A stretch of DNA of 64,000 bases, taken from the NCBI GenBank assembly GCA_020048055.1, contig JAIFNA010000001.1, forward strand, positions 28,985 through 92,984. Reading direction: 5' to 3'. A program made the position numbers and the translations under genes. Below, piece after piece: positions 1-60,845 of the stretch. How positions within the stretch are numbered: position 1 is the first letter of the stretch; each line of letters starts with the position of its first letter. The notes below the pieces were generated by a model. The model ran no database searches and was not told where the DNA came from. It was given only the letters and a program-made list of their open reading frames with translations. The DNA is from Arcobacter sp. (GTDB taxonomy: Bacteria > Campylobacterota > Campylobacteria > Campylobacterales > Arcobacteraceae).

Positions 1-3000
1 ACCGACACAGAAGTTGTATTGAAACGCGGTTATGATGTGTGCTTTTATAGTTCCTAGGTTCCTCGAACCGACACAGAAGTTGTATTGAAACCACAATCAC
101 TTTCGTGATTGTGAAACAGGACTCAAGCTCGAACCGACACAGAAGTTGTATTGAAACAGACAAGAGAGAATACAGCAGGACAGAAAACAGAAACTCGAAC
201 CGACACAGAAGTTGTATTGAAACATGAGTACAGTTGAACTTGAAATGAAAGTTAAACTTCTCGAACCGACACAGAAGTTGTATTGAAACCGAAACACTAA
301 GAAGAACACTAGATGAGCAAACACCTCGAACCGACACAGAAGTTGTATTGAAACTGTCTATAGAGTTATTTGGGATATGTATTTAGAGCCTCTCGAACCG
401 ACACAGAAGTTGTATTGAAACCACTAAGATAAGGCATATTTTTGTCCTTTGATTTCTCGAACCGACACAGAAGTTGTATTGAAACAAGGATGGTTCAAGG
501 GGTAAATTTTGTAGATGATCTCGAACCGACACAGAAGTTGTATTGAAACGTCATACACTATAGTTATAACACCTAGCGAAAGACTCGAACCGACACAGAA
601 GTTGTATTGAAACACTGCTAGTAAATATGGGCTTAATGGGTGGACTGCTCGAACCGACACAGAAGTTGTATTGAAACAGTGTAAAATCAACTATTTCAGA
701 TATCCTAGCTCCTCGAACCGACACAGAAGTTGTATTGAAACAAGATAACGGAGTGGATGGACAATCAACCGCTACAGCTCGAACCGACACAGAAGTTGTA
801 TTGAAACAAAGTTATAAGTCTTTTTCCGTTTGCAATTGCCACCCTCGAACCGACACAGAAGTTGTATTGAAACGAGAGAATCAAAAACGGAGGGATTAGT
901 TACACCTACTCGAACCGACACAGAAGTTGTATTGAAACTGAGGAACAAAAATTAAAGGAGTTTTTTAAATATTTACTCGAACCGACACAGAAGTTGTATT
1001 GAAACTAAGATTAGCAAGTGTGATTGATCTTTTGCCGACTTCTCGAACCGACACAGAAGTTGTATTGAAACTTGTCAACTGACAAAGTCCGTTGGACTGA
1101 TTTAACAAACTCGAACCGACACAGAAGTTGTATTGAAACTTTATCTCTATTCCACAAAGTTCAGAATAAAATTCTCGAACCGACACAGAAGTTGTATTGA
1201 AACGCGGTTATGATGTGTGCTTTTATAGTTCCTAGGTTCCTCGAACCGACACAGAAGTTGTAAGATAATAGTGTTCTTTTGGTCTCGAACCGACACAGAA
1301 GTTGTATTGAAACTGTATATCTCTACTATTTACACTATTGACCTCTTCTCGAACCGACACAGAAGTTGTATTGAAACGGATTTTGCAAAAGAGGTAACAA
1401 ATCCAAATAATCCTCGAACCGACACAGAAGTTGTATTGAAACTATTCACTAATAACAATAGTAATTTTTTCGGCAGACTCGAACCGACACAGAAGTTGTA
1501 TTGAAACCTCATTATTTTATATTTATAAATGCCCGTACCTTGCTCGAACCGACACAGAAGTTGTATTGAAACATATCTTTATAAAGTAAATCTAATTGAT
1601 TACCAAACTCGAACCGACACAGAAGTTGTATTGAAACATCTTTGAAATTGACCTCTAACTGTTTTTTTAATCTCTCGAACCGACACAGAAGTTGTATTGA
1701 AACGACTGGGAAAACAGTTTAGTGAGGTTGAGGATTCTCGAACCGACACAGAAGTTGTATTGAAACTTTATAGTTAGATTTTTCTTTACACTTTTAATAA
1801 TCTCGAACCGACACAGAAGTTGTATTGAAACTTTTGAAGAACCTAAATCAATGAATTGTCGCATAACTCGAACCGACACAGAAGTTGTATTGAAACTCGA
1901 TAAAATCTTCACTAGTACCTTCAGCAATTGCTCGAACCGACACAGAAGTTGTATTGAAACGGTAGTTGGTCGCCTTTAAAGTATTTTTTATGGATTCTCG
2001 AACCGACACAGAAGTTGTATTGAAACAAAGTATAATCATAAATATTAAAACTATCAACGCAGCTCGAACCGACACAGAAGTTGTATTGAAACATAGTAGG
2101 TTTAGTTCTTGAATCAAGCCATTCAATACTCGAACCGACACAGAAGTTGTATTGAAACATGGAGAGTGATGGTGAGTATTTTAGGTATAGCTCACTCGAA
2201 CCGACACAGAAGTTGTATTGAAACTGGAGAGAAAACTGCAAGTTTTGTAATCAGTCCACTCGAACCGACACAGAAGTTGTATTGAAACCGAGATGGAGAG
2301 CTGATTGCTAGAATGGAGGGTAACTCGAACCGACACAGAAGTTGTATTGAAACGCAATACATAACTGCAGAGCAAATCTACAAGATAGCTCGAACCGACA
2401 CAGAAGTTGTATTGAAACCTTGATGGCTTGAAGTTTCCATCTCCATTTTCTAACTCGAACCGACACAGAAGTTGTATTGAAACATCGTTAACTTTGTGAG
2501 AGGTGGCAAAAGCAGTTTAGCTCGAACCGACACAGAAGTTGTATTGAAACAATGGCGTAGCAAACACACAAGTATCTGGAGGAGTCTCGAACCGACACAG
2601 AAGTTGTATTGAAACATCTTTATACAATCTTCAATACTGTTATGACAATACTCGAACCGACACAGAAGTTGTATTGAAACTATTTAGCATTTGTGACAGG
2701 TCGTAGAAGTGTTGAACTCGAACCGACACAGAAGTTGTATTGAAACTTTGCTATATTAATATTTGTTCCTATCCCATATTTTCTCGAACCGACACAGAAG
2801 TTGTATTGAAACTCGATGAATTTGATGAAGATGGAAATAAACAAATTCTCGAACCGACACAGAAGTTGTATTGAAACCTTTGCTTGTGTTGTTGCTAGGT
2901 CACATGGTTTTCTCGAACCGACACAGAAGTTGTATTGAAACATCAGTGTTTTTAAGGTTTTATAATGACTAGATTCTCGAACCGACACAGAAGTTGTATT

Positions 3001-4362
3001 GAAACTTCAATCCTTTTGATGTTTGGCTCATTCCAAGAGTTCTCGAACCGACACAGAAGTTGTATTGAAACTCATTAGTTAAATCAGTCCAACGGACTTT
3101 GTCAGTCTCGAACCGACACAGAAGTTGTATTGAAACGAAGATATAAACGATGTAAATAATCCTTTTAATTTGCTCGAACCGACACAGAAGTTGTATTGAA
3201 ACAAGTTCCGTAAGCGTCTTTTACATCTTGAGGTAACTCGAACCGACACAGAAGTTGTATTGAAACCGATTTAATAAAGCCTCATCTTCAAGAGGGCTAA
3301 CGCTCGAACCGACACAGAAGTTGTATTGAAACAATCTTATGAAAGGGGGTAAGTTTTAATGTTTACCTCGAACCGACACAGAAGTTGTATTGAAACCCGC
3401 TTCTGTTTAAAGTTGGAAGTAAGGAAGAAGGTCTCGAACCGACACAGAAGTTGTATTGAAACAATGATATTCTTACTAAATCCGCTGAAATATTTTTACT
3501 CGAACCGACACAGAAGTTGTATTGAAACCGGAATGACATCTACAATCAAAAATATTTTACTTTCCTCGAACCGACACAGAAGTTGTATTGAAACTAAGTT
3601 GGTTTCTTTGTTGTGCGACTTGCATAGTTCTCGAACCGACACAGAAGTTGTCGAATACCCTAATCCTAGTTTATTCTCGAACCGACACAGAAGTTGTATT
3701 GAAACAGTCTTCCCAGTAAAGGGGATAGTCTAATGGATTTTCTCGAACCGACACAGAAGTTGTATTGAAACTCAAACCCGATAACCTCTCCAACAGGTGA
3801 AATTTTCTCGAACCGACACAGAAGTTGTATTGAAACATTAGAACAGATTACTATTACAACGGTTTAGAAATTCTCGAACCGACACAGAAGTTGTATTGAA
3901 ACAGGTAAATGTACAAAGTTTATCGATAATGGATTTAACTCGAACCGACACAGAAGTTGTATTGAAACAAGATATGACCGTAGATATTCGCAAAAAGTTG
4001 ACTACTCGAACCGACACAGAAGTTGTATTGAAACGTTCGTTTAGTAGCTCGTTTTTCTTGCTATTAACTGCTCGAACCGACACAGAAGTTGTATTGAAAC
4101 TTTGGTTTTACAATCAATCTTAGGTATTCATTTATCCTCGAACCGACACAGAAGTTGTATTGAAACTTTCCATAACCCTTCAATAAAATTTTTCGTAAGT
4201 TTCTCGAACCGACACAGAAGTTGTATTGAAACATTTACGACACATTAGGGTATCTCTCTCATCATACTCGAACCGACACAGAAGTTGTATTGAAACGTAA
4301 ATAATTGGGGAAGCTCTCAAAACTTTCCAAGACTCGAACCGACACAGAAGTTGTATTGAAAC
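1..4362 (+). CRISPR. CRISPR array 1, 68 repeats, left end outside window
   Basis: A 30-bp repeat that begins CTCGAACC and ends ATTGAAAC recurs about every 66 bp, from a copy cut by the window edge (1-25) to the last copy at 4333-4362. I count 68 repeat copies and 67 spacers, mostly 34-38 bp. The ATTGAAAC end is the usual crRNA 5-prime handle of type III and I-B repeats, which puts transcription on the plus strand and the leader left of the window. Two copies are truncated on the right (1240-1262 and 3630-3651), each followed by a short spacer (21 and 24 bp). No cas gene lies beside it in the window. The long open frames across it are repeat artefacts. Confidence 0.98.
1204..1283 (+). repeat. 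Duplicated spacer followed by a truncated repeat
   Basis: The 36-bp spacer at 1204-1239 is identical to the first spacer in the window (26-61), 1178 bp away. The repeat after it (1240-1262) lacks its last 7 bases and runs straight into a 21-bp partial spacer. The pattern suggests recombination between array copies followed by an internal deletion, although an assembly collapse in the repetitive array would look the same. Confidence 0.85.
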
Positions 4363-8805: not shown

Positions 8806-9164
8806 GTAATGAATTATTGAAAAAACTCCAGCTTTCACAAAAGAAAACAAAAAAATCTATCAAAACTAAACTTAATTCAAATAGTCCATTTGGAACATTA
8901 ACGGATGATGAAATAGCGATGGTTTTAGCCATACGAGCAAAGGAACTTAGAATAGTACAAAATAAAAAGCAAACAGAATTTAGTAACCAAGCAAATCTAA
9001 ACTCACCTACAACATACTCAAATTTTGAGCAAAAAGGTACTATCTCAATGATAAATTTCATTAAAATTCTAAGAGTTTTTGGAAGACTTGAGCAACTTGA
9101 AAAATTACTTCTACCAACAGTTAAAGAAAAGATTGAAAAAAATGAAAAGAAAAGAGTTAGATAA
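8802..9164 (+). CDS. HipB-like HTH antitoxin, downstream of hipA
   Basis: A 120-residue protein whose middle (residues about 42-100) is an XRE/Cro-type helix-turn-helix: IRAKELRIVQNKKQTEFSNQ, then SPTTYSNFEQKGTISMINFIKILRVF. The ATG overlaps the HipA stop (ATGA), indicating translational coupling. It should neutralise HipA and bind the inverted repeat at 7485-7533. The basic N-terminal extension (residues 1-30, many K and S) is unusual for HipB and may contact the kinase. Confidence 0.8.
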   Translation: MSNELLKKLQLSQKKTKKSIKTKLNSNSPFGTLTDDEIAMVLAIRAKELRIVQNKKQTEFSNQANLNSPTTYSNFEQKGTISMINFIKILRVFGRLEQLEKLLLPTVKEKIEKNEKKRVR

Positions 9165-9297
9165 AATTTCAAACATAGCTTCAAAACCCTTACAAGAATA
9201 AGTTTGAAAATCTTTATTTTCAAGACTAATTAGTTATAAATTCCTATTATATTTGATTTGTAATAATAAATATAAGAAATGCTTTTCAATACAAATA

Positions 9298-9813
9298 CTA
9301 AATAACAGAAAGAGTTTTATATGGAATCTTATTACCATTTTTATCTATCCATTCAATAATACTTTTAGTGTTATTCAGATCTAAATGAATGCAACTTTTT
9401 GGAATGTTTTCTTTTAGTATTGTATCATCAGTAGCAATAGCATCTGTCATTTCAAAATAGTTCTCATCTAATTTCTCTCTAAAAATAGCAATTCTAGGCA
9501 ACGGAAGAGTTTTAAGTCCTTCTACAAGCAAATAGTCAAAATCATCAAAAAGTTCAACAATTTTACTAATAGATGAATTTGATTGTTTGAATAGTGTTGT
9601 TTTATTTGGAGAAATGACGATGACATCAGCACCTGTTTGTGAAAATAGCCAACTATCTTTTCCTTCTACATCAAAAATTGCTTTATCTTTTGGGTCATGT
9701 TTTACGATACACACTTTGTATCCGTATTTCTGAAGTATATTTGAAATATTGACTATTAATGTAGTTTTTCCACTGTTTGATGGTCCCGTAAAAGCAACTG
9801 CTAACCTTTTCAC
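9298..9813 (-). CDS. mobB: MobB, molybdopterin-guanine dinucleotide biosynthesis adaptor
   Basis: A 171-residue P-loop protein: AFTGPSNSGKTTL is the Walker A (residues 7-19), followed by the MobB signature VCIVKHDPKDKAIFDVEGKDSW and QTGADVIVISP. MobB binds GTP and assists MobA in attaching GMP to molybdopterin, giving the bis-MGD cofactor that NapA needs. It is divergent from the cytochrome c gene and shares one Crp/Fnr-like site with it (9869-9882); a TATAAT box at 9841-9846 (minus strand) fits a class II promoter. Length is normal for stand-alone MobB. Confidence 0.93.
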   Translation of the reverse strand: MKRLAVAFTGPSNSGKTTLIVNISNILQKYGYKVCIVKHDPKDKAIFDVEGKDSWLFSQTGADVIVISPNKTTLFKQSNSSISKIVELFDDFDYLLVEGLKTLPLPRIAIFREKLDENYFEMTDAIATDDTILKENIPKSCIHLDLNNTKSIIEWIDKNGNKIPYKTLSVI

Positions 9814-9868
9814 ATAAACCCCTTATAGATATTTTTAAAGATTATAGCCAAAAAATCAATTTGCCTTT

Positions 9869-9882
9869 TTGACTTAAATCAA
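9869..9882. promoter_or_regulatory. Crp/Fnr-type box serving two divergent promoters
   Basis: TTGACTTAAATCAA matches the TTGAT-N4-ATCAA Fnr-type palindrome at 9 of 10 positions. Its centre (9875.5) lies 41.5 bp from the predicted start at about 9917 (TACAAT -10 box at 9905-9910, cytochrome c) and 41.5 bp from about 9834 on the other strand (TATAAT at 9841-9846, mobB). One box is therefore in the ideal class II position for both genes. Start sites are predicted from the -10 boxes. Confidence 0.75.
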
Positions 9883-9936
9883 AGTAATGTAGAAAATATT
9901 TTAATACAATTTTAAAATAACATAAGGGAAAAGAGA

Positions 9937-10230
9937 ATGAAAAAAATAGTTACAATAGGTTTATTGGCAAGTTTGATGACAACATCACTTTTAGCAGATG
10001 GTGTAGCAGCATACAAAAAATGTGTAGGATGTCATGGTGCAAATGGGGAAAAAGTTGCATTAGGAAAGAGTAAAATTATCAAAGATATGTCTAAAAATGA
10101 GTTAGCTATTGCTTTAATGGGTTACCAAAAAGGAACATACGGCGGGGCAATGAAAGCTCTTATGAAAGGACAAGTAAAAGGACTCAGTAAAGCTGATATC
10201 GATGCACTTGCTGAAATGATTGGAAAGTAA
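9937..10230 (+). CDS. Periplasmic class I cytochrome c (c553-like)
   Basis: A 97-residue precursor with a signal peptide (MKKIVTIGLLASLMTTSLLA), one heme-binding CVGCH (residues 29-33) and a Met ligand candidate in KALMKG near the C-terminus. Such small cytochromes carry electrons in the periplasm between the bc1 complex or a dehydrogenase and terminal reductases. The Crp/Fnr box at class II spacing and the nap genes nearby suggest expression under oxygen limitation or nitrate respiration. A 12-bp stem-loop follows the stop codon. Confidence 0.9.
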   Translation: MKKIVTIGLLASLMTTSLLADGVAAYKKCVGCHGANGEKVALGKSKIIKDMSKNELAIALMGYQKGTYGGAMKALMKGQVKGLSKADIDALAEMIGK

Positions 10231-10238
10231 TTTCATAA

Positions 10239-10271
10239 AATGATAGAAGAGATATTTTATCTTCTATCATT
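10239..10271 (+). terminator. Stem-loop after cytochrome c gene
   Basis: AATGATAGAAGA and TCTTCTATCATT form a perfect 12-bp stem with a 9-nt loop, starting 9 bp after the cytochrome stop. The following bases are TTAAAAT rather than a clean T run on this strand, so termination is likely but not textbook. Confidence 0.55.
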
Positions 10272-10383
10272 AAAATACCTCTAGCTCATAAATCATATAG
10301 TACACATAGACCAATTACGATATTTTAAGTACACTAAAAATATAATATAAAACTTAAAAACATAAAATATTGGACGATTATGG

Positions 10384-11613
10384 ATGATTGATAAAGACAA
10401 AATACTACTTGACCTTTTTGAATAAGAACCACAACTAGCAAAAAAATATTGAAGAAAAAACTCATATCAAAGGCTCAACTCTTAATAATATTCTCAAAAG
10501 TTTAGTTGAATCACAAAGGCTAGAGAGGATAGGAAAATGAAAAGCAACCTACTATAAAAGAATCTATAGAGAAAACTATTCATATAAAAATATCACTGTT
10601 TTAAAAGATGGAATTGTTGTAGGGGAGCTTAGTTTTGGTGAAGGAAATTATTATTTTGTTTATAGTGAAAGTTACAAAGGAAAATCTCTTATTGGACTTC
10701 TAAATAATGGGACAATTATCCAAAATAATGAGCTATTTTATGTGTTTGAAAATCTTATTCCAGAATCACATAGAAGAGAAAAACATATAGATATCTCAAA
10801 TTTGAAGATTTAGCTGACAGTTTAACAACACTTTTAAATACTCATGGTTCCTATGAGTTTGTTTATACTTATGAACTCTTCAAATACAAAAAAGTAACTG
10901 ACAAAAGACCAAACTGGTTAACAGTAAAAAATAAAATATTGAGCTCTTATAATTATCCAAATTTACTTGATATGAAACTTGATATCAGTGATGAGATTCT
11001 TGAAGATAAAAGCAACCATGATCATTCATCACTAAGTGGTTATCAAAACAAAATTGATGTAAATATCGATGAAGAGACCAAAACAATCACAATTGATACA
11101 AAAAATCCACACTATCTTCTTAAACCATTTAATACAAACATCGGTCACTATTTTGGAGATAAAAACTCATATTATCCACAAGCTTTGGTAAATGAGCATC
11201 TTTTTATGAGTTTTGCTAAAAATGAACTTCTTTTAGATGTCCCATACAATGGACTTATATACCACAATAGTCAATTTCACTATATCATCAAAAGATTTGA
11301 TAGATATGAATAGTTTAAATATGAACAATATGATTTTGGGCAGTTTTTAAATATCTCAAGTGCTAACAAATACAATGTCAGTAGCGATCATTTGTTTACT
11401 AAAGCAAATGAAATACTTCAAGATAAAAATTCTAAGATGTCACTTTTAAGATTTTACTTTTACTCTTATATCATACAACATAGTGATTTACATGCAAAAA
11501 ATTTAGCAGTTTTAAACATCGGTAAAGAGAACTATCTCTTCTATCCACTCCATGAAAGCTGTTTCAAAGGTGATGCAATACAGTGGCATGAGATTTGGAT
11601 TGACAAAAATTAA
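10384..11613 (+). pseudogene. Decayed HipA-like kinase with N-terminal winged helix
   Basis: Translated piecewise, the region gives a winged-helix segment (STLNNILKSLVESQRLERIG), a HipA N-subdomain, then SLSGYQNKIDV, HYIIKRFDRYE and HSDLHAKNLAVL. The last three match the HipA motifs S-I-S-G-x-Q-x-K, KRFDR and the catalytic N-N-D-D-H-A-K-N loop, with the ligand region changed. In-frame stops interrupt it (after residue 13, in the RIG/KATYYKR linker, after DISNLKI and after KRFDRYE at 11311-11313), and there are frame shifts. It represents a third, dead HipA of the type with HTH and kinase in one chain. Confidence 0.8.
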
Positions 11614-11634
11614 AAAGATTTTATCTTCTCTTTA

Positions 11635-11683
11635 TTGATTTATATCAATCAATAAAATTTTAAAACACTCTACACTTCCAAAA
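11635..11683 (+). promoter_or_regulatory. Fnr-type promoter of the DUF2249 operon
   Basis: TTGATTTATATCAA (11635-11648) is a perfect Fnr-type palindrome. A TACACT -10 box lies at 11671-11676, so the predicted start (about 11683) is 41.5 bp from the box centre, the class II activator position. The gene start follows at 11708. Confidence 0.78.
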
Positions 11684-12069: not shown

Positions 12070-13302
12070 ATGGCAGTTTCAACTGATTTTGCACCACCCT
12101 TTAAACTTATCGCTCCCTATTTTATTTTAGGGGTTGTTTTTTATATAGGAAGTATTGTTTCGTTATTTGGGGTGGATATTTCACATCTTTCACAATTTTC
12201 AACTTTTACTCTCTCTTTTATTCATATCTTTTTACTTGGATTTGTGATGATGGTAATATTTGGTGGCATGGCTCAACTTGTCCCTGTTGTCCTTGAAGTT
12301 GGGCATTTTGCGGTTGAGTTGTATTATGTGATTTACCCACTATTGGCTCTTGGAGCTCTACTTATGGGGATTGGATTTGTATTCTCCCCTATATTACTCC
12401 CTTTTGGTGGGGTTGTTGTTTTGATAGCGATGATGGTATTTTTATTTGAAACGATGATGACGATAAAAAAAGTAAAAAAACTCAACTTTGTGATGAAAAC
12501 TGTATTGTTAGCCAATATTTTTCTTTTTTTTGGACTTGTATTTGGGATAATTATGGCATTAGGTTATGGTGGAATTATCGACATATCAATCGAAAGATAG
12601 CTTCTTCCTCATATCTTTTTGACATTCTTTGGGTATGTTGGGATTACGATTATGGGGATGAGTTTGGTACTTCTTCGTATGTTTTGGCTCTCTCATAGCT
12701 TTAGTTGGAAAAGTGTTGAGTATAGTGTGTATTGTTTTAGTGGAAGTGTTTTTTCTATCCTTTTAGGAGTATTTTTAAAAAGTAGCTTGGTTGAAACTTT
12801 AGGGTATCTTTTGATTATCGTATCGGCTGTTTTGTATTTGTATCAAATATTTTTGATTTATAAAACAAGGGTAAGAAAAGAAAATGATATCTATTTTAAA
12901 TCGACAGTTTTTTCCTACACAAGCCTATCTGTAGCACTTTTACTTGGAATGAGTTATTTGATTTTTCAAAGTGAGAGGATTCTTTTAGTTTTTGGATGGG
13001 TTTTACTTTTTGGTTATATTGGAAATATTATCACTGGGCATCTATATAAGATTATCCCATTTTTAGTGTGGTATCAAAGATTTTCTCCACTCATTGGAAA
13101 ACAAAAAGTACCGATGTTAGCTGATATGGTTCCAAAACTAGGGAGCAGTTTTCAGTTTTATTTTACACTTTTTGGTGTCTTACTCTGTGGATTTGGGATA
13201 GGATTTTTGAGTAATGAGCTCTTTTATAGTGGCGTTAGCTTTTTGTTTGTTGGGGGGATTTTTATGTTTAAAAACCTCCTTTTTATGATAAATTTTAGAT
13301 AG
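12070..13302 (+). pseudogene. Polytopic membrane protein (NnrS/oxidase-like) with in-frame TAG
   Basis: About 410 codons of one continuous frame, interrupted only by the TAG at 12598-12600. Both halves are strongly hydrophobic, with about twelve membrane segments in total. Conserved His-bearing helices (FIHIFLLGFVMMVIFGG, VVLEVGHFAVELYY, HIFLTFFGYVGI and GHLYKIIPFLVWYQR) recall NnrS and heme-copper-oxidase subunit I-like proteins linked to NO metabolism. The second half has no good start of its own. It is either a recent nonsense mutation, a sequencing error, or a gene read through at amber. The neighbours (DUF2249, DUF59) support a NO/nitrite-related role. Confidence 0.7.
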
Positions 13303-15723: not shown

Positions 15724-15737
15724 TTGATTTTAGTCAT
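15724..15737. promoter_or_regulatory. Weak Crp/Fnr-like box before moeA
   Basis: TTGATTTTAGTCAT fits the palindrome imperfectly and lies at a distance compatible with a class II promoter for moeA, though the -10 candidates (TACAAA or AAGATA) are poor. It is listed because five better sites occur in the same island. Confidence 0.35.
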
Positions 15738-15788: not shown

Positions 15789-16400
15789 CTAAAAGCTAAT
15801 CAGCATCTCCAATTTTGAACAATCGATAATATTTGAGTGATCATCTAAAATTTTTAGCTCTTTTAGTTTTTTTAAAACTCTTGAAAATGTTTCAGGGGTT
15901 ATATTAAGCTCATTCGCGATTAATTTCTTTTTTGTTTCTTGAAATGTTTCTTTATTATTGTAGATAAAAAATGCAACTTTTGTCATCGCATCAAAGATTA
16001 AGCTCCTATTGATAAGCTTCTCAAGAGCTTTTATCTTTTGGCTAAACGACTTTGTCATCAAATATGAAATCTTTGGATTTGTTTTTAAGAGTTGATTTAA
16101 GCCATCTTTTTTAATGAGTGCAATTTTACAATCATCAATACAAATAGCAGTTGCTGGGAATTTTATATTTTCAAAGCTAGCCATTTCTGCTATAAAATTC
16201 ACAGGTGAAAAATTATGCAAAACTATCTCGTTTGATTTGTTATCTGTTTTGTAAATTTTCACAAAACCAAACAAGAGAAGATAAAAATATTGTGGCTCAT
16301 CACCTTCAAAAAAGATAATTTCATTTTTTTGAAACTTTTTTATTTCGGTAATTTGTACTATCTCATCATGATTGATGAAGCTTTCTAATACATCTTTCAA
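15789..16400 (-). CDS. Crp/Fnr-family transcription regulator 1
   Basis: A 203-residue protein with a cyclic-nucleotide-like beta-barrel (residues about 20-110: IIFFEGDEPQYFYLLLFGFVKIY) and a C-terminal winged helix (KKLIANELNITPETFSRVLKKLKEL). There is no Cys cluster as in Fnr; the recognition helix carries E-T-F-S-R. It starts with TTG inside the stop of the FmdE-like gene. It belongs to the Campylobacterota group that includes the Nss regulators of nitrate and nitrosative stress. It is the last gene of the regulator operon that begins at 18610. Confidence 0.85.
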   Translation of the reverse strand: MKDVLESFINHDEIVQITEIKKFQKNEIIFFEGDEPQYFYLLLFGFVKIYKTDNKSNEIVLHNFSPVNFIAEMASFENIKFPATAICIDDCKIALIKKDGLNQLLKTNPKISYLMTKSFSQKIKALEKLINRSLIFDAMTKVAFFIYNNKETFQETKKKLIANELNITPETFSRVLKKLKELKILDDHSNIIDCSKLEMLISF

Positions 16401-16958: not shown

Positions 16959-17948
16959 TTACTTTGACTTACAATTCATAAGGAGAATATCTAGCTCATT
17001 TTTTAATGCTTGAAGCTTTTTAGTTGTTTTTAAAAGCTCCTCAGTCGATTCAATTACAATATCCTCACTCTTATCAAGATATTTTGAAATCTCTCCATTA
17101 TGCTCAAGTTCTTCTATTATAAGGCTAAACTCATCTGTTAGATTTTCAAGTTTTAGCGAAGCCAATTTTGACTGTTCAAGTGCATTTTGTGAATAATTCA
17201 TAGCTGATGATACTTTATTTATAAAACAATTCAGATTATCTGCAATCTCTATAAATTCCTTCTCTGAATTGATATTCATAGGCTCAAGATTTTCGAAATC
17301 CCCCTGACTTATCTGTTTTGACTTTTTTATAAGCTCCATCGCATGGGCTTCAATTTGTCTTAACTGAACAATTGAATATATGGCAAAAATTATTAACAAC
17401 ACAAATGAAATAGATTGAAAATTTTTAATAAAAGCATTTTTGGTTTCAATATAAAGTGTGTATAGAGTTACTATTTTATCAACTTCTTCTAGCAATTTGT
17501 TATTTGTTATTGTGTAGTAAATAATAAGTGAATTTATTTTTTCCACATCATTAATAAGCAATGCATTTTTAAACTCGTTTGTATTATTTGAAAATAAACT
17601 CCACAAAATAAGTACATTTGAGATTTGATTTTTTATCTCATCGGTTGGAGCTGGTGCTATTTTTAATAGTTCATTTCCTTTTTCTAATGTTCTAATCCCA
17701 AACTCGAACTCTTTAATAGCAGTATCCATTTCACTAAAATCTTTTGATTTTGTTTGTGACAAAAGAAAAATATTTTTTGTAATCTTTTGCGTAAGCATTC
17801 TTTGTTTTCCAGCTAAATTTACAACTGAAGCATCTTTTTTATTCTTTTGATTTAGATATATTGTTACGCTTATAACAAAAAACACAGTTATCAATAAAAA
17901 TGCACCCAATATTTTTATTTTTTTACCAACACTAATATTTGCCATCAT
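16959..17948 (-). CDS. Membrane sensor with PilJ-type (nitrate-like) domain
   Basis: A 329-residue protein with a membrane segment at residues 8-28, a periplasmic region containing LAGKQRMLTQKITKNIFLL (about 43-61), which is the PilJ/NarX-type P-box-like motif, a second membrane segment (about 178-195) and a HAMP-like, coiled-coil cytoplasmic tail. There is no kinase or methyl-accepting output domain, so it probably signals by protein contact. The start overlaps the stop of Crp/Fnr regulator 2 (ATGA). Its place next to nap suggests nitrate or nitrite sensing. Confidence 0.72.
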   Translation of the reverse strand: MMANISVGKKIKILGAFLLITVFFVISVTIYLNQKNKKDASVVNLAGKQRMLTQKITKNIFLLSQTKSKDFSEMDTAIKEFEFGIRTLEKGNELLKIAPAPTDEIKNQISNVLILWSLFSNNTNEFKNALLINDVEKINSLIIYYTITNNKLLEEVDKIVTLYTLYIETKNAFIKNFQSISFVLLIIFAIYSIVQLRQIEAHAMELIKKSKQISQGDFENLEPMNINSEKEFIEIADNLNCFINKVSSAMNYSQNALEQSKLASLKLENLTDEFSLIIEELEHNGEISKYLDKSEDIVIESTEELLKTTKKLQALKNELDILLMNCKSK

Positions 17949-18610
17949 CTAACTCCTGTATAAATAGCGCTTAATTCTTCATATTTTTCAATAACAACTA
18001 GCCCTTTATCAATATTAATTATTTCGTTTCTTTGCATCTTTTTTAATACCCTTGATAATGTTTCTGGTTGAATATGTAGCAAAAGAGAAACCTCATTTCG
18101 TTTTATTTTGTTAAATATTTCTAAATCATTACAAAGCATAAAAGCAACTTTAGAAGTCGCATCAAACACAAGTTCCCTATTTATAATACATTGAAGTTGT
18201 TGATTTTTATATATTAGCTCCTCTATAAAACTAAAAATTAGCTCATTATGAAATAAAAAAGTCTCTTTAAAATTTTTAAAATCAATGGCAAGCATCAAAC
18301 TATCTTCAACAAATTCTGCATTTGAAAAACAGCGAATTTTGTCATCTTGGAGATTTGATAGTTCTGAGATCATCCCTTTTGGGTGTATGTAATACAAAAA
18401 AATCTCATTGTCATATTTATCTATCTTAAACACTTTAATAAGTCCATCAACCAAAAATAAAAGTTTATCATTAGTCTCCATCTCATAGTGCAAAATAGTA
18501 TTTTTATCGTATTTTAAAAGTATTGAGATTGAAGCTAAGATATCTAAATCTTTTACATTTAGATGGGAAAAAAGAGTTATTTTTTTAATTGATTTTTGTA
18601 AGATTGTCAT
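17945..18610 (-). CDS. Crp/Fnr-family transcription regulator 2
   Basis: A 221-residue protein with an effector barrel (residues about 15-120) and a winged helix near residues 165-205 (NEVSLLLHIQPETLSRVLKKM). The recognition helix E-T-L-S-R nearly equals that of regulator 1 (E-T-F-S-R), so both probably read the same box. No Fnr-type N-terminal cysteines are visible. It heads an operon with the PilJ sensor, FmdE-like protein and regulator 1. The stem-loop at 18637-18666 just upstream contains a box-like sequence. Confidence 0.86.
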   Translation of the reverse strand: MTILQKSIKKITLFSHLNVKDLDILASISILLKYDKNTILHYEMETNDKLLFLVDGLIKVFKIDKYDNEIFLYYIHPKGMISELSNLQDDKIRCFSNAEFVEDSLMLAIDFKNFKETFLFHNELIFSFIEELIYKNQQLQCIINRELVFDATSKVAFMLCNDLEIFNKIKRNEVSLLLHIQPETLSRVLKKMQRNEIINIDKGLVVIEKYEELSAIYTGVR

Positions 18611-18631: not shown

Positions 18632-18666
18632 AAAAAATATTTGCTTGATTTAAGTCAAGCAAATAT
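18632..18666 (-). terminator. Terminator of the nap operon with embedded Crp/Fnr-like box
   Basis: ATATTTGCTTGA (18637-18648) and TCAAGCAAATAT (18655-18666) form a perfect 12-bp stem with a 6-nt loop. On the minus strand it begins at the stop of the PAS gene and is followed by a T run (18632-18637), the form of an intrinsic terminator. The stem centre reads TTGATTTAAGTCAA, a Crp/Fnr-like box 35 bp before the start of regulator 2, so it could also act as an operator. Confidence 0.75.
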
Positions 18667-26360: not shown

Positions 26361-26409
26361 CATAAGAATTGTAACGAGATGGAAAGAATATGTATTTGAC
26401 TTATGTCAA
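26361..26409 (-). promoter_or_regulatory. Crp/Fnr-type promoter of napA
   Basis: TTGACTTATGTCAA (26396-26409) is centred 41.5 bp from the predicted start at about 26361, with a TACAAT -10 box at 26368-26373 (minus strand). This is the class II activator layout and gives a 31-nt leader before the napA ATG. Confidence 0.75.
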
Positions 26410-27471: not shown

Positions 27472-27518
27472 TTAGAATAGTATAAAGTTTTTATCTTTTT
27501 TATTTTGACTTGTGTCAA
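27472..27518 (-). promoter_or_regulatory. Crp/Fnr-type promoter of moaA
   Basis: TTGACTTGTGTCAA (27505-27518) lies about 40 bp from the predicted start (about 27472), with a TATACT -10 box at 27479-27484 on the minus strand. The layout matches napA, mobB and the cytochrome gene. Confidence 0.72.
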
Positions 27519-51095: not shown

Positions 51096-51368
51096 TTAGA
51101 TAATTATTGCTCCATCTTCAAAAAGTAGTGGTAATCCTCGCCCAAGCATAAGTGGTTCTGGGTCGATTTCAATGATATTTATCTTGTCCTCTTCTTTCTT
51201 GATGATTTTTGAAAGTTTAGTCAAAATCTTTTTTGCTTCACTTCTACTAAGCGGTGTATGAAGGGCTGATTTTTGTCCGCCAAGACTAAGCGGATAGGAA
51301 AGTTTTCTAGTACGATAAAGTCGTTTTTCATTTGCTATATCGTAGCAAAGTAGGTAGTCTTTTACCAT
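51096..51368 (-). CDS. cas2: Cas2, first copy (variant)
   Basis: A 90-residue protein: MVKDYLLCYDIANEKRLYRT gives the catalytic Asp (YDIAN); then SYPLSLGGQKSALHTPLSRS and DKINIIEIDPEPLMLG. This is the longer-loop Cas2 type, clearly different from the second copy. It overlaps the NYN-like gene by 7 bases and lies 106 bp before cas1. Confidence 0.85.
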   Translation of the reverse strand: MVKDYLLCYDIANEKRLYRTRKLSYPLSLGGQKSALHTPLSRSEAKKILTKLSKIIKKEEDKINIIEIDPEPLMLGRGLPLLFEDGAIII

Positions 51369-52204
51369 TTTGTACCTTTTTTATAAAATTGACTTAAATC
51401 GATGTAGTTGTCAAACTTTACAATATCTTCGATTACTGGTTTTTGGGTGATAAATTTATCTATATCGTAGAACTTATAAAACTTTATCTCTTTGTGAAAT
51501 TCTATGGCAAATTTATAGTATGCCTGTGGTGTTCTTTCCTCTCTTTGGTACCTTTTTTTAAACAACTTTACACAATTTCTGCATACTTTTTTTCTAAAAT
51601 TGATACCATTTTCAAGTCGGAAAAGTGCATTACCAAGAAATTTATATTCTGGGTCAATATAGTGGAGATTTTGGCATACTTGACATGGAATATAGTTTTC
51701 TAAATTTGGTAGTGGTTCTAGTTTTGGCTCATTTTGTATGGAGTGCCTTTTTCGTTTTTTATCTTTTCCGTAAAATATATTGATTTTTAATTTTTCTGCT
51801 TTGAGTGGGATAAACATCATAAGATTTCTTTGGTAATTTGTGCTTACTATAAGATGAAGAGATTTTTTGTATCTTAGTATCTTAGAGATGAGTGGAGCAA
51901 AATATTTATTGGAAGTAACAACTATAAAATGGGTGTACTTTGCCAATAATTCTTTAAAATAATCAGAAGTATAAAAATCTCTTACACTCTCTTCATGGAG
52001 ATATTCTATCTGGTTTTTTTGAATATATTCGCTGTTTATCTCTGTCAACAGTGCAAAAGGAAAAAGAGAAAATATCAAAGTATGATGTGGGATAACCGTA
52101 AGTTTTTTTTCAAAATATTGTTTGTTTTGAAGTGAAACAGAGGAAAAATCCCATATCAATAGAGTGTCTTCTTTGATTTGTAAATCTAGATTTTCAAAAA
52201 TCAT
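51362..52204 (-). CDS. Unrecognised protein: NYN/PIN-like domain plus zinc finger
   Basis: A 280-residue protein between the effector and adaptation genes. The N-terminal part (TLLIWDFSSVSLQNKQYF and THFIVVTSNKYFAPLISKIL) has the alternating strand/helix order and placement of acidic/Ser residues of NYN/PIN-type nucleases, but the key acidic residues are only partly kept. Residues about 175-225 hold a treble-clef-like CxxC...CxxC pair (PCQVCQNLHY and KKVCRNCVKLFKKRY). I know no named family. It is coupled to a 46-residue protein upstream (TAATG) and to cas2 downstream. Confidence 0.55.
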   Translation of the reverse strand: MIFENLDLQIKEDTLLIWDFSSVSLQNKQYFEKKLTVIPHHTLIFSLFPFALLTEINSEYIQKNQIEYLHEESVRDFYTSDYFKELLAKYTHFIVVTSNKYFAPLISKILRYKKSLHLIVSTNYQRNLMMFIPLKAEKLKINIFYGKDKKRKRHSIQNEPKLEPLPNLENYIPCQVCQNLHYIDPEYKFLGNALFRLENGINFRKKVCRNCVKLFKKRYQREERTPQAYYKFAIEFHKEIKFYKFYDIDKFITQKPVIEDIVKFDNYIDLSQFYKKGTKW

Positions 52205-52344
52205 TAAAACTCCCTTTTTGCATAATCAAAATCTTTTTGATTTTTTCTTGTGTAGAGCTTTTTGCTTTTTTTGGTTCTTGTAACTGGGTTGAAGCCCCAA
52301 ACAATTCTTGTTTTTATTTGTGATGTTTTTATTGTAAGTTTCAT
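52204..52344 (-). CDS. Small basic protein of the adaptation operon, 46 residues
   Basis: The first codons are MKLTIKTSQIKTRIVWGFNP, followed by VTRTKKSKKLYTRK; 14 of 46 residues are Lys or Arg, suggesting nucleic-acid binding. AAAGGAAAT precedes the ATG and its stop shares a base with the start of the NYN-like gene. It is the first gene after promoter c. Confidence 0.65.
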   Translation of the reverse strand: MKLTIKTSQIKTRIVWGFNPVTRTKKSKKLYTRKNQKDFDYAKREF

Positions 52345-52402
52345 ACGATTTCCTTTTTATTTATAGGGAAATTGTATGAAATATTTATGTCAGATTTTGT
52401 CG
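52339..52402 (-). promoter_or_regulatory. Shared-architecture promoter c and inverted repeat (adaptation operon)
   Basis: On the minus strand: CGACA (52398-52402), 5 bp, TGACA (52388-52392), 11 bp, TACAAT (52371-52376); predicted start about 52364. TTTCATACAATTTCC (52381-52367) and GGAAATCGTATGAAA (52353-52339) are near-perfect inverted arms (14 of 15) that embrace the -10 box and the ribosome-binding site/ATG of the 46-residue gene, likely a repressor operator. Confidence 0.72.
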
Positions 52403-52410
52403 TTTTAAAA

Positions 52411-53646
52411 TTAAATTAGTTTTTTGAGCGCTAGACTTTCATATTGAAAGATTAAGCTTGCAATATCTTTTTTTATGTCCGCAAAAGGTGTACTTGAGTT
52501 TGCATGGGCTAGATTGTTTCTTTTGTTGTCTATGTTTTTGTATAAAACTTCAATATTTAATTTACGATAACTATTTTGTAGCTTTTGATAATCGCTTTCT
52601 AAAAGTGTAATAGCTTTATTTTTATTATCTTTGGTAAATTTTTCATAATCTTTCCAAGAGAGATTTTTGAAAAAATCACCGATTTTATATAAATCATTTT
52701 TGAATTGTTTTTCAATATTTTCTACCAAATTTGGATGCTCTTTTTTGATAGCAGATTTGATATACATTCGTATACTCTCATATAAAAGTGCCAAACTAAG
52801 AAGCATATATCTCTTTTCAAAAAGATTTTTTGAAAGTTCATAATAGGTCAAATATCTTTTTTTACTACTAAAATCTGATAATTCCTCAATCACTTTTTTT
52901 AAACTTTGTGCTTGATTTTTGATAGAGACTTCGTGTACATTATCAAGCTCAGTTATTAAATTTTTTGCTGTGATAAATAAATTTCCTAGATTGAGTGCCA
53001 TTAGGTCATTTGAAAAGTCATTGAGTTCTTGAAGAAGTTTTTTGTATTTTTGTGAGTTTATATGACTAGCCACTGTGTAATTTCTTTCAAATGTTGAGAG
53101 TACAAAAGCGATATTTGCAAGGTCGAGATACTCTTTGAGGTCGATGATTTCATACTCTTTGAACTGCACTATCTCTTTTGCAAATAAAATCTTTTTAATT
53201 TTTGAAGTATCTTTGAAATTTTGGATAATCAAATCAACTATCATCAAAATTGGTAAATGCCGAAATCCATGTGAAACATCGATAATAAGCTCATCAAACT
53301 CATCAACGGCGTTGTTGATGATATTGAAAAGTTTCGTAAAATCTTTATCATCTTCAATAAAATATTTTTCATCAAAATGTGTAAACTCACTACCACTTTT
53401 TACCAAAACTTTTTCATTGACAGCTTTTGCCTCTTTGGTGTGAAGAGGGACGATAGTGTAGTCTTTAGAATATTTTTCACACAATAGAGGGAAAGTATTG
53501 AAATACTCTTTTGCATCAGCCTTATTTTCCTCAAAGTAGTATTGAGCTTTTTGGTGGTTGTCATTTCCACCAATTAATCCCAAAATAGTGATAACTGCTT
53601 TGGATTTTTTTGGAATACTTGTTTTTGCTACTATTTTGAGGGGCAT
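52411..53646 (-). CDS. CARF-HEPN ribonuclease (TM1812/Csx1-like)
   Basis: A 411-residue ancillary effector. N-terminal CARF domain (residues 15-190): AVITILGLIGG, and the ligand-site motif DVSHGFRHLPIL (about 123-134). C-terminal HEPN domain with RNNLAH (Rx4H, near residue 376). Cyclic oligoadenylate made by Cas10 should bind the CARF dimer and switch on RNA cleavage. The gene follows the large Cas7 by 11 bp and ends the effector operon. Confidence 0.88.
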   Translation of the reverse strand: MPLKIVAKTSIPKKSKAVITILGLIGGNDNHQKAQYYFEENKADAKEYFNTFPLLCEKYSKDYTIVPLHTKEAKAVNEKVLVKSGSEFTHFDEKYFIEDDKDFTKLFNIINNAVDEFDELIIDVSHGFRHLPILMIVDLIIQNFKDTSKIKKILFAKEIVQFKEYEIIDLKEYLDLANIAFVLSTFERNYTVASHINSQKYKKLLQELNDFSNDLMALNLGNLFITAKNLITELDNVHEVSIKNQAQSLKKVIEELSDFSSKKRYLTYYELSKNLFEKRYMLLSLALLYESIRMYIKSAIKKEHPNLVENIEKQFKNDLYKIGDFFKNLSWKDYEKFTKDNKNKAITLLESDYQKLQNSYRKLNIEVLYKNIDNKRNNLAHANSSTPFADIKKDIASLIFQYESLALKKLI

Positions 53647-53657
53647 TTTATTTTCCT

Positions 53658-55853
53658 TTATTTTATTGTTTTTATTTCAGCTTGTGCTTGTTTTAGTAAA
53701 TTTAAAATAAATTCTGAGCCTTCATTCTTTTTTGAATTCTCATATGTTTTAATAAAATTCTGTAAAGCACTTTTTAGAAATTTTTTATCTGCATTGTGTA
53801 TATTATCCCACTTATCTTGAGCTTCTTGATTTACTTTTGCAAACTTATTTTGCTTTTGTGCCTCTTCTAAAGTATTTTGAATAGCTTGTAACTCATTAAT
53901 TTTTTCATTTTCTGGATACTTAACAATAAAATTCTTGATAATATGAATATCATTTGAAGAGAGTGCTTTTTCAAAATCATCATTTTCTTTTTTGATTTTT
54001 GCTTCTAATTCCTCTTTTTCTTTTTTAGCTTGAATTTCTTGTCGTGCTTTTTCTTCTCTCTCTTTAGCTATCTCCTCTTTTCTTGAAATCAAAGATTTTC
54101 TCTCTTCATCACTAAGAAGTGATTTAACTGTAACTGATTTGATATTGTCAAGCGCTGTATAGTTTCTTAAATAGTCTTGCTCATTGCCTGTTTTATTTTT
54201 TGCAAACTCTGGTAGTTCTAAATATTTTAGTTTTGAATTTCCATCATTTTTTTGTTCTGTTGCCATTGAAACTAACTCTTTTAAGTGCTCACTACTTGCC
54301 CAATTTGGTATTTGTTCTGTTAGTGTAGTTTCAAACTCTTTAAGATAACTATTGATATCTTTTACACCATCAAGCTTTAACTCAATTTTGCCATAACCTA
54401 AAGATTTTGCCATACCAATATTGTGAAATGTTTTAGTGGTGTTGTGAAATGTAAGTGCTGAAAGCAATGCTCCAATCTCTGCTTTTTGAAGATTGTGATA
54501 TCTCAGTTTACCTTTGAATACTACTTCATCTTTTAAGGGCTTAAATGTTGTACCGACATTATCATTACCAGTAATTGTTGTTTTTGTAGTTTGATTTGAA
54601 TTATGAATAGGGTATCTTTTTCTACCTGCAATTTCAAAATAACTATCCATAAAAGTAGTGAATAATTTTCCATCAGTTTGTTGAACATAGATTGGATAGT
54701 ATGAAGCTCGTGGTGTTCCTAAAATCTCTTTTCTAGGATTCATTGGAGTTATATTTGAAATCGCTTTAAAATGGCTAAATTGTACTCTTCCTTTTAATGC
54801 TTCCTTTTTTTCTTTATTGATATAACCAAATATTGTTTGAGCTAAATCCAAATCTTCACTTTCAAAATGTGCTTTTGGAATACCATCTTTAATACTATGA
54901 GAATACGGTAATTTATAAAGATATGAAAGTCCAAAATGTTTTATGGTAGCACCATCTTTTTGAAAAAATACAGGAACTTTCTCTCCATTTTCAAGTTTCT
55001 TTTTCCAATAAGTCCAATCTGGTGATTCTTTTGGTTCTGTTGTTCGTTTGTCAAAATAGGCGAATTTGAAGTTTTCCATAGCTTCTTTTGAAACTGGTAA
55101 TTCACCTTTTGCATCAAAAAATAAAAACTCATACCCTTTTCCATCTCCCATTTTACCTGTATCTTTTCTTGGAGTTGGTTGACCTGTTAGAACTAAAATA
55201 GCTTTATTTTTATCATCTTTTGAGTAGTTATAAAAAACTCTATTGTCATATTTTGCATTCGTTTTTGACTTAAAAGGTTCAGATAAAGTTATTGCCTTTA
55301 ATCCTGCTCCAATCTTATTATATTTATACTCTGAAGATTTTTGTTTTTGATTTTTTGCATCAAAATTATTTCCCTTAAAATATTGTGCAAATTTAACATT
55401 TAGTGCTTTATCTATCTCTTCATGTCTTATGCGTCCGACTTCTCCGCAATCTTCAATGATATAGTTATTATTGACTTTTTTAAGCCAACCACCAAAGGTA
55501 GGTTTTTTCATTTCGCTCATATAAAAATTATCTGCTTTTGATAAATCTCTAACCGCATAAGTGTTGTCATCAAAAATTTCATCTCTCATTTTAGAAAAAC
55601 TCATAATCTCCAAAACATTTCTAACCATCCCTTTGACACTGGTCGACGGGATATAATATTGTCCATTATGTTGACAAAATTCCTCTTTGTTTTCGTGGTC
55701 TCTTATAAAAATTGGACTTTTAGCCGTAATTGTAATCCCTATCTCACCACTTTCACCATCTTCAAATGGTATATCGTGACTGACTTGTTCACTCCAAGTT
55801 GGATAAAAAACCTCTTTATTTAGAGGTACAAAATTGTATGGTGCTGTTATCAT
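53658..55853 (-). CDS. Large Cas7-like RAMP (insertion-type, TIGR03986-like)
   Basis: A 731-residue RAMP that starts ITAPYNFVPLNKEVFYPTW, the hallmark of TIGR03986 proteins of type III-D. RAMP features: YIPSTSVKGMVRNVLEIMSF, the FRxxG-like GRVQFSHF, and FHNIGMAKSLGYGKIELKL (Gly-rich loop, about 490-508). Two long insertions separate these. The last about 180 residues are a charged coiled coil (REEKARQEIQAKKEKEELEA). It corresponds to the Cas7-insertion subunit of III-D variants. It overlaps the Csx19-like gene by 4 bases. Confidence 0.88.
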   Translation of the reverse strand: MITAPYNFVPLNKEVFYPTWSEQVSHDIPFEDGESGEIGITITAKSPIFIRDHENKEEFCQHNGQYYIPSTSVKGMVRNVLEIMSFSKMRDEIFDDNTYAVRDLSKADNFYMSEMKKPTFGGWLKKVNNNYIIEDCGEVGRIRHEEIDKALNVKFAQYFKGNNFDAKNQKQKSSEYKYNKIGAGLKAITLSEPFKSKTNAKYDNRVFYNYSKDDKNKAILVLTGQPTPRKDTGKMGDGKGYEFLFFDAKGELPVSKEAMENFKFAYFDKRTTEPKESPDWTYWKKKLENGEKVPVFFQKDGATIKHFGLSYLYKLPYSHSIKDGIPKAHFESEDLDLAQTIFGYINKEKKEALKGRVQFSHFKAISNITPMNPRKEILGTPRASYYPIYVQQTDGKLFTTFMDSYFEIAGRKRYPIHNSNQTTKTTITGNDNVGTTFKPLKDEVVFKGKLRYHNLQKAEIGALLSALTFHNTTKTFHNIGMAKSLGYGKIELKLDGVKDINSYLKEFETTLTEQIPNWASSEHLKELVSMATEQKNDGNSKLKYLELPEFAKNKTGNEQDYLRNYTALDNIKSVTVKSLLSDEERKSLISRKEEIAKEREEKARQEIQAKKEKEELEAKIKKENDDFEKALSSNDIHIIKNFIVKYPENEKINELQAIQNTLEEAQKQNKFAKVNQEAQDKWDNIHNADKKFLKSALQNFIKTYENSKKNEGSEFILNLLKQAQAEIKTIK

Positions 55854-56260
55854 TTATCATCTCCTTTTGCAAATCCTACAAAGACTACTTTTTTGAGTTT
55901 TAGTGTAGGAATATTTTCACAAAATGGGTCGTTTTCCTCTTCCCAAATCTGAGCCATTTTAATTTTATAACTAAAATCTTTTATATCTGAAATATATTTT
56001 TCGGTATCTTTTGATGCTATATTTGAAATATCTGTTGTTGAAATCAACCAACTATCATTTATTTGTCTAATCATTACAGATTCACTTCCGTTACAAAAAT
56101 GAGCCTCATAGATAAAGCCACTTTCATCAACTATCTCAACCTTTTTAGCACCTGTAAATATATCTTTTTCTTTATCTATTGGACGATTTGAAAATTGAAC
56201 ATAACCTTCATAATCCCTATAATTTTCATTTATTATTTTTGCAATATCTTCTTTTCTCAT
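55850..56260 (-). CDS. Csx19-like / TIGR04423-like small subunit
   Basis: A 136-residue protein: YEGYVQFSNRPIDKEKD, then KVEIVDESGFIYEAHFCNGS and SESVMIRQINDSWLISTTDI. Its size and its place between two cas7 genes fit Csx19, an accessory subunit of type III-D complexes; the sequence also recalls a small type III-associated family seen in Campylobacterota. I cannot decide between them. Overlaps of 4 bases on both sides show strict coupling. Confidence 0.55.
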   Translation of the reverse strand: MRKEDIAKIINENYRDYEGYVQFSNRPIDKEKDIFTGAKKVEIVDESGFIYEAHFCNGSESVMIRQINDSWLISTTDISNIASKDTEKYISDIKDFSYKIKMAQIWEEENDPFCENIPTLKLKKVVFVGFAKGDDK

Positions 56261-57555
56261 AGTTTTTCTCCATCTTTTAAAACAGTTCCAATAAACACTC
56301 CATGCCCTTTTGTTGTAGCCCCACCAAGAGGAAGCATACCTGTAGCTATATCTTTAAGTGTAGTTTCAAATGCTTTTAGTTCATCAGACACAATTGACTT
56401 TTCAAGTAAAATTTCTATTTCGTACTTATCATTGTCTTTAGATATAGTTTTTTCTTGAAATAATGCCCCATCAAGTCCTCCACCTGTAAATCTATCAATT
56501 GCCACATGGTCAAATGTTTTAGTTTGCCCACCATCATTTTTAAAACAATCAGAGATAAGGATTTTCCCTTTTTGTCCAAGTTCAGTTTCGTTATCACTTG
56601 CTAACTCTTTTTTGTGTCCAAAAATAGCATCAATAGATAGAACTCCATTGTTTGCTTCTATTGTATTGCCTTTGAGTTTATTAAAATGATATGTTGTACG
56701 ATGAGCAATTGCCCCTTTTACTGAACTTGCCGGTATTAATACTTTTTTAGCTGTTAGTTTTTTATTTTCATAGTCCACAACACTTTCATACACGGGTGTC
56801 ATATCCGCATCATCATCTCCAAATCCACTCCCAAACATGAAGAAATCTTCTGGGCAAATTTTGAGAGTATAGACTGTATAGTTGATATTTTGTCGTTCAT
56901 CTTTTGGGAAAAGTTTTGAATATGAGGTATTAAGAGAAGACGATTTTTCTTGATATTCTTTGGTTGTAATTTCAAAAGTATCATAGCTACTAAGCTCATT
57001 TAAAATCTTAATATCCCCAAATCCTTTAGTGGTACCGCCACCCAATCTAAAAACTTTTGAATTGATAACTTTGATGAGTTCATCCCAATTTGAATGGTCA
57101 TTGTCATCAGCTATTAGTTCTAGTCTAAATTTAAAACGAGTACCTTTATAAACTACCTCTTCATCAAATTTTCCACTATTTTCACTGTCTGCTACACCTT
57201 TTGATGTAATCTTTGTGTGTTCTCTTTGAGGAAGGTTTTCAAAAATCTTTAAAAAGTCATTTTTATTTGGATTGAGTGTTTCTATCACTTGCATATCTTT
57301 ATCACAAAGAAGTGCATTTGAGATGATAATCCTTGAGCCTTTTTCATCACCAAATATATCATTTGCAAAATTTTTATCAAACTCTTTTCGCAAAACTCCA
57401 GCAATAGAAGTTCCTAGTATCATAGGAAGCTCATTCCAATCTTTTTGTACAGGAGCATCTTGAAGCATATCAAGATCACTACTTCCTACTTTTAGAGGAG
57501 TTTTTGCTTCAAAAACTATATTGGCTATATATCTTTTGTTATACTTATTTCCCAT
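56257..57555 (-). CDS. Double Cas7 RAMP (Cas7-2x)
   Basis: A 432-residue protein composed of two Csm3-like RAMPs. First unit: IVFEAKTPLKVGSSDLDML, PMILGTSIAGVLRKEFD, REHTKITSKGVADSENSGKF and RLGGGTTKGFGDIK (residues about 10-190). Second unit: IPASSVKGAIAHRTTYHF, HVAIDRFTGGGLDGALFQE with a candidate catalytic Asp, and LGGATTKGHGVF (about 270-425). Cas7 subunits form the backbone and cut target RNA every 6 nt. The fusion is the Cas7-2x of III-D variants. Confidence 0.88.
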   Translation of the reverse strand: MGNKYNKRYIANIVFEAKTPLKVGSSDLDMLQDAPVQKDWNELPMILGTSIAGVLRKEFDKNFANDIFGDEKGSRIIISNALLCDKDMQVIETLNPNKNDFLKIFENLPQREHTKITSKGVADSENSGKFDEEVVYKGTRFKFRLELIADDNDHSNWDELIKVINSKVFRLGGGTTKGFGDIKILNELSSYDTFEITTKEYQEKSSSLNTSYSKLFPKDERQNINYTVYTLKICPEDFFMFGSGFGDDDADMTPVYESVVDYENKKLTAKKVLIPASSVKGAIAHRTTYHFNKLKGNTIEANNGVLSIDAIFGHKKELASDNETELGQKGKILISDCFKNDGGQTKTFDHVAIDRFTGGGLDGALFQEKTISKDNDKYEIEILLEKSIVSDELKAFETTLKDIATGMLPLGGATTKGHGVFIGTVLKDGEKL

Positions 57556-60827: not shown

Positions 60828-60845
60828 AAATTAAATTATCTTTCA

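Follow-up and report, generated by a model that had tools for sequence, protein, structure and literature searches.

Within the 64,000-nucleotide stretch of Arcobacter sp. DNA analysed here (the window), does one regulator site serve both mobB and the small c-type cytochrome gene that faces away from it? The two reading frames are separated by 123 bp (mobB from 9813, minus strand; cytochrome c from 9937, plus strand), and this gap holds a single exact palindromic box with a −10 hexamer on each side. The features of the locus are:

9298..9813, minus strand: mobB, 171 aa, GTG at 9813 (TIGR00176, 120.2 bits, cut-off 76.2)
9834, minus strand: predicted mobB transcript start, seven bases past the hexamer
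9841..9846, minus strand, centre 9843.5: TATAAT, predicted −10 hexamer for mobB, 22 nt from the box
9869..9882, centre 9875.5: Crp/Fnr-type palindromic box TTGACTTAAATCAA, predicted to be common to both promoters from its sequence and from class II spacing kept in relatives
9905..9910, plus strand, centre 9907.5: TACAAT, predicted −10 hexamer for cytochrome c, 22 nt from the box
9917, plus strand: predicted cytochrome c transcript start, seven bases past the hexamer
9937..10230, plus strand: small c-type cytochrome gene, 97 aa, ATG at 9937 (PF00034, E 8.7e-08)

A probable shared box for two divergent promoters

The predicted transcript starts were placed seven bases after each −10 hexamer. Both hexamer centres lie 32.0 bp from the box centre, and the two starts, 83 bp apart, each fall 41.5 bp from it, which is the class II position of about −41.5. 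The initial annotation had placed one box, centred on 9875.5, at this distance from both starts, with TACAAT on one side and TATAAT on the other; its coordinates are confirmed. Judging from the DNA sequence, the box is probably where an activator binds to drive two divergent class II promoters; one Crp/Fnr dimer would co-induce the two, which would compete for it.

Specifically, a Crp/Fnr-family dimer bound at 9869-9882 would take over the role of a −35 element for each promoter and could bring in σ70 RNA polymerase at either of the two −10 hexamers, both 22 nt from the box. Because the box and the dimer are two-fold symmetric, the two halves would present identical contact surfaces, one toward each gene. 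Since the two polymerase sites share the box, a given DNA molecule would probably be transcribed in only one direction at a time. With starts 83 bp apart and the same box needed by both promoters, this geometry makes simultaneous occupancy by two polymerases unlikely. El-Robh and Busby reportedly found in 2002 that one CRP site cannot hold two polymerases at once. The initial annotation had proposed strict co-expression of the two genes. A shared activator would give co-induction, but because both promoters need the same box, competition is likelier on geometric grounds than lock-step.

A plain σ70 scan of 9000-10800 returned 11 promoter-like sites, compared with 10.0 in shuffled sequence, which is no excess. 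The consensus scan returned neither TACAAT at 9905-9910 nor TATAAT at 9846-9841, and found no −35-like partner for either one, as expected if both promoters are activator-dependent. Two other weak plus-strand candidates lie in the gap (9869-9897 and 9890-9918), one of them carrying TAAAAT at 9913-9918. Matches to TATAAT of 5/6 or 6/6 occur at about 2.3% of positions in hand-chosen intergenic stretches of the window. When up to one mismatch is allowed, the window shows no excess of boxes over shuffled sequence (97 versus 89.8), and the counts given below therefore use exact boxes unless stated otherwise.

The mobB gene beside cytochrome c is the second copy in the genome, the other being at C5:70024-70512. 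Thus, the link may provide an extra supply of cofactor rather than control the cell's only MobB.

Conservation of the spacing in relatives

We collected 82 cytochrome c loci (30 + 52), which after removal of five duplicates represent 77 distinct upstream regions. An exact box is present within 140 bp upstream in 27 of these; the other 50, more distant paralogues among them, have no exact box. All 27 boxed regions have a TATAAT match of 5/6 or better at offset 22, more than chance would give at the background of about 2.3% in the intergenic stretches. At offset 17, the runner-up among the 21 examined, only 7 of the 27 have such a match.

This rigidity bears on the reading in which the regulator represses both promoters from their −35 regions and is released by a signal. 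The box does overlap the −35 region of both promoters. Repressor positions usually vary, however, whereas rigid spacing such as that at all 27 loci is typical of class II activation, and the lack of −35-like partners for the two hexamers is likewise what activator-dependent promoters would show. Repression of this kind is thus highly improbable.

A divergent mobB neighbour was found at two of the 77 cytochrome c loci, namely the window's own and L052/L111 of G022, a genome of another genus. The mobB/cytochrome c gap of G022 is also 123 bp, and the positions of its box and of both hexamers align with those of the window. Consistent with the proposal of the initial annotation that one Crp/Fnr-type box is tied to both genes, class II spacing is found in both directions and is kept in G022. 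Counted from the other gene, cytochrome c adjoins mobB at one of 30 mobB loci, again the window's own; the G022 pair is outside those 30. That the pairing is this rare counts against the shared-site reading.

Alternatively, the box could mediate class II activation of cytochrome c alone. The mobB hexamer would then be a weak constitutive promoter that is either unaffected or repressed, repression coming from an activator and a polymerase that occupy the cytochrome c side. A box at −41.5 without mobB is indeed widespread (25 of the 27 boxed loci), and such a box is lacking from most mobB loci and from the region directly upstream of the mobB copy at C5:70024-70512. This reading is nevertheless unlikely, considering that a 6/6 far-side hexamer stands at exactly 22 nt at both boxed loci with divergent mobB, in two genera, and at none of the 25 without it. 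The neighbourhood of mobB in genus relatives also argues against it. In four of them (L170-L173) mobB directly follows moeA. The region before moeA contains in L170 an exact box followed at 22 nt by TATAAT; weaker versions stand there in L172 (exact box, 4/6 hexamer) and L173 (one-mismatch box, TAAAAT), and none is listed for L171. We therefore retain the shared activator site as the preferred reading.

An origin of the window pair by inversion of mobB from a moeA-mobB operon was considered. In G022, moeA and mobB are convergent. In a tree of 32 MobB rows, the window copy is not placed with the moeA-linked mobBs of the genus relatives. Constraint tests rejected neither the grouping of the window copy with the moeA-linked mobBs (p-AU 0.355) nor its grouping with that of G022 (p-AU 0.186), so the tree and the tests are decisive neither way.

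Downstream of the shared gap, the gene order in G022 is cytochrome c followed in line by DUF2249-like, membrane-protein, FeS-assembly-like, FmdE-like, YgbA-like, crp2-like and PilJ-like genes. In the window, the stretch between cytochrome c and the DUF2249-like gene (10231-11634) appears by eye to be a broken HipA-type gene; it is missing from the G022 operon, and the DUF2249-like gene has an additional box in front of it, at 11635. The membrane-protein gene of the window (12070-13302) is interrupted by an in-frame stop, which leaves frames of 176 and 227 aa, while its G022 relative is one 412-aa frame.

Recurrence of the mirror layout

A strict mirror pattern, ATTNTA-N22-TTGA-N6-TCAA-N22-TANAAT, was searched in 104 genomes of the family. 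It occurs at 17 places in 15 of the 104 genomes, once in the window's genome. Fifteen of the 17 places lie between divergent reading frames, and the pairs are of seven kinds:

napA / glycosyltransferase-family-3 gene: 6 of 17 mirror places (L076-L079, L089, L090)
crp2 relative / YgbA-like gene: 3 of 17
mobB / cytochrome c: 2 of 17
CXXCH protein / glycosyltransferase-like: 1 of 17
CXXCH protein / Sel1-like: 1 of 17
FmdE-like / small ORF: 1 of 17
crp1-like / ABC permease-like: 1 of 17

Here, the glycosyltransferase, YgbA and FmdE names have Pfam support from one protein each, and the CXXCH, Sel1 and ABC labels were given by eye. The initial annotation had called such symmetry uncommon; its presence in 15 of 104 genomes of the family speaks otherwise.

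Mirror geometry could in principle arise by chance in AT-rich DNA. In line with this, the number of boxes with one mismatch at most does not exceed that in shuffled sequence, and two of the 17 places do look like chance, L080 being hairpin-like and L083 lying inside a frame. Yet the same search with spacers of 25/25 and 20/20 gave 2 and 0 places, compared with 17 at 22/22, and the same layout stands at the same gene pair in G022, which leaves chance with hardly any probability as an account of the window pair. Because the same mirror layout recurs at nitrate-respiration genes of relatives, it looks like a real shared on-switch rather than a coincidence.

When the spacer was allowed to vary from 16 to 28 on both sides, 77 places were found. 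Of these, 35 have a spacer of 22 on the TATAAT side, where no other value exceeds 7, and 21 have 22 on the opposite side. The cell with 22 on both sides contains nine places, one of them hairpin-like, versus 9.5 predicted by the margins, and symmetry itself is thus not shown to be favoured. The 22-nt spacing is the rule, and double promoters, as predicted from the sequence, exist.

We tentatively suggest, as a possibility that is more doubtful than the shared site itself, that in this family the exactly symmetric mirror promoter with a single box recurs as a design feature of the nitrate regulon, with neighbours recruited by gain of a −10 hexamer and competition setting the output. As the box and the dimer are palindromic, a gene back to back with a regulon member might need to acquire no more than a −10 hexamer at 22 nt to come under the same control. 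Two polymerases competing for one dimer might then keep the outputs of the two operons at a constant ratio, or lead to a stochastic choice of one operon over the other. Repeated recruitment would fit the 15 intergenic mirror sites, which are of seven kinds.

In L170 (3762, 3793) and L172 (3173, 3207), the crp2/napA gap has two separate boxes, each with a hexamer of 4/6 to 6/6 at 22 nt on the side of one gene, in contrast to the single shared box of the window pair.

Other boxes and the predicted regulon

The 2.0-Mb genome contains 40 exact TTGAYNNNNRTCAA palindromes, compared with 19 matches to the reversed pattern. Of the 40, the window contains five, all outside frames of 100 aa or more, whereas 30 of the remaining 35 are inside frames of at least 100 aa and five are outside. 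In addition to the box shared by mobB and cytochrome c, the window contains:

11635..11648, plus strand: box before the DUF2249-like gene (11702), TACACT at 22 nt
18645..18658, minus strand: box before crp2, TAATAT at 22 nt
26396..26409, minus strand: box before napA, TACAAT at 22 nt
27505..27518, minus strand: box before moaA, TACTAT at 22 nt

NapA and MoaA were identified by profile matches, while the DUF2249-like label rests on a Pfam match below the gathering score. Three of the six gene-side hexamers at 22 nt in the window match TATAAT at 5/6 to 6/6 and three at only 4/6; the three weaker matches count against the preferred reading. Read from sequence, the boxes of the window mark a predicted nitrate and molybdenum-cofactor regulon comprising mobB/cytochrome c, napA, moaA, the DUF2249-like gene and crp2.

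On this reading, mobB and cytochrome c would be induced together with napA, moaA, the DUF2249-like gene and crp2 by one signal, presumably nitrate or low oxygen. Co-induction with napA makes sense because NapA requires the molybdopterin-guanine dinucleotide cofactor. A one-mismatch box at 15724-15737 precedes moeA, with TAAGAT, seen by eye, 22 nt away on the moeA side.

Candidate activators

The link to the Crp/Fnr family drawn in the initial annotation is supported by two genes for such regulators nearby:

15789..16400, minus strand: crp1, Crp/Fnr-type regulator, candidate activator (PF00027 and PF13545)
17945..18610, minus strand: crp2, Crp/Fnr-type regulator, favoured candidate activator (PF00027; PF13545 just below the cut-off)

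The genome has five cNMP-domain matches, namely crp1, crp2 and frames of 731, 615 and 207 aa. The helix-turn-helix contains PETFSR in Crp1 and PETLSR in Crp2, compared with PQHLSR in the 207-aa protein; the E..SR pattern of Crp1 and Crp2 is the one known from FNR. The first 25 residues of crp1 and crp2 contain no cysteine, so neither has the N-terminal Fe-S cysteines of an E. coli-type FNR.

Relatives of crp2 at 44% identity or more were found in 21 of the 24 family genomes searched; for crp1 the corresponding figure is 6 of these 24. No separate crp1 match was found in G022, the 86%-complete genome that also has the mobB/cytochrome c pair. In G021, a boxed cytochrome c is present and no crp2 above 32% was found, which makes it less likely that the box is read by crp2 alone. 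These presence patterns do not settle the choice; crp2 is the likelier activator, and crp1 a possible one.

A PilJ-domain protein (16959-17948) adjoins crp2, as it does in L111, L170, L172 and L173, and could be a partner sensor.

Comparison with known systems

A single CRP site for two divergent promoters and FNR boxes at −41.5 are already known, and what is new here is the recurrence. For E. coli, 11 divergent pairs with a single CRP site are described (PMC3105977). These resemble the present locus in having one Crp/Fnr-family site between two divergent genes; here, in contrast, the box is of FNR type, its distance to both −10 hexamers is identical, and the arrangement is repeated at other gene pairs. 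Class II FNR promoters with a box near −41.5 are described for, among others, Sphingopyxis granuli, in which one box is suspected to serve a divergent gene as well (ccoN/ompW; PMC7713065). The type of box sequence and its position are alike, but each box discussed here has two predicted promoters. In the open-licence literature, no description was found of the shared-box case of mobB and cytochrome c, which is weak evidence of absence, nor of a single FNR site at both of two divergent promoters.

The boxes of DNR, NnrR and HcpR are reported as TTGAT-N4-ATCAA or TTGAC-N4-GTCAA, with targets in nitrogen-oxide respiration (PMC1274295). The box described here is nearly the same, and FNR-type boxes stand before genes of nitrogen-oxide respiration (napA, moaA, DUF2249-like, crp2), so that the likeness is one of box and targets. 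The targets visible here differ in being Nap and molybdenum-cofactor genes.

Bidirectional promoters of E. coli, as outlined in a 2026 study, share with the window pair divergent transcription from one short region and possible polymerase competition, but they use a shared −10 element and have starts typically 18 bp apart, whereas the window pair has two −10 hexamers and predicted starts 83 bp apart (PMC12825309). According to the same study, strong activation one way represses the other at bidirectional promoters, while direct polymerase clashes are without effect at separate divergent promoters, which counts against competition (PMC12825309).

A review states that no FNR orthologue was found in this bacterial group and that an FNR/CRP homologue is missing from Arcobacter butzleri (PMC6682613). 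The boxes described here would provide such a group with a sequence-defined Crp/Fnr regulon that follows a rigid 22-nt box-to-−10 rule. The mirror promoters would also be natural, evenly matched test pieces for whether one activator dimer serves two polymerases at once or singly.

Other features of the window

Repeated peptides in spurious ORFs at about 1848-3733 and 51362-61670 suggest CRISPR arrays, and several genes of the window resemble, by eye, those for type III Cas proteins.
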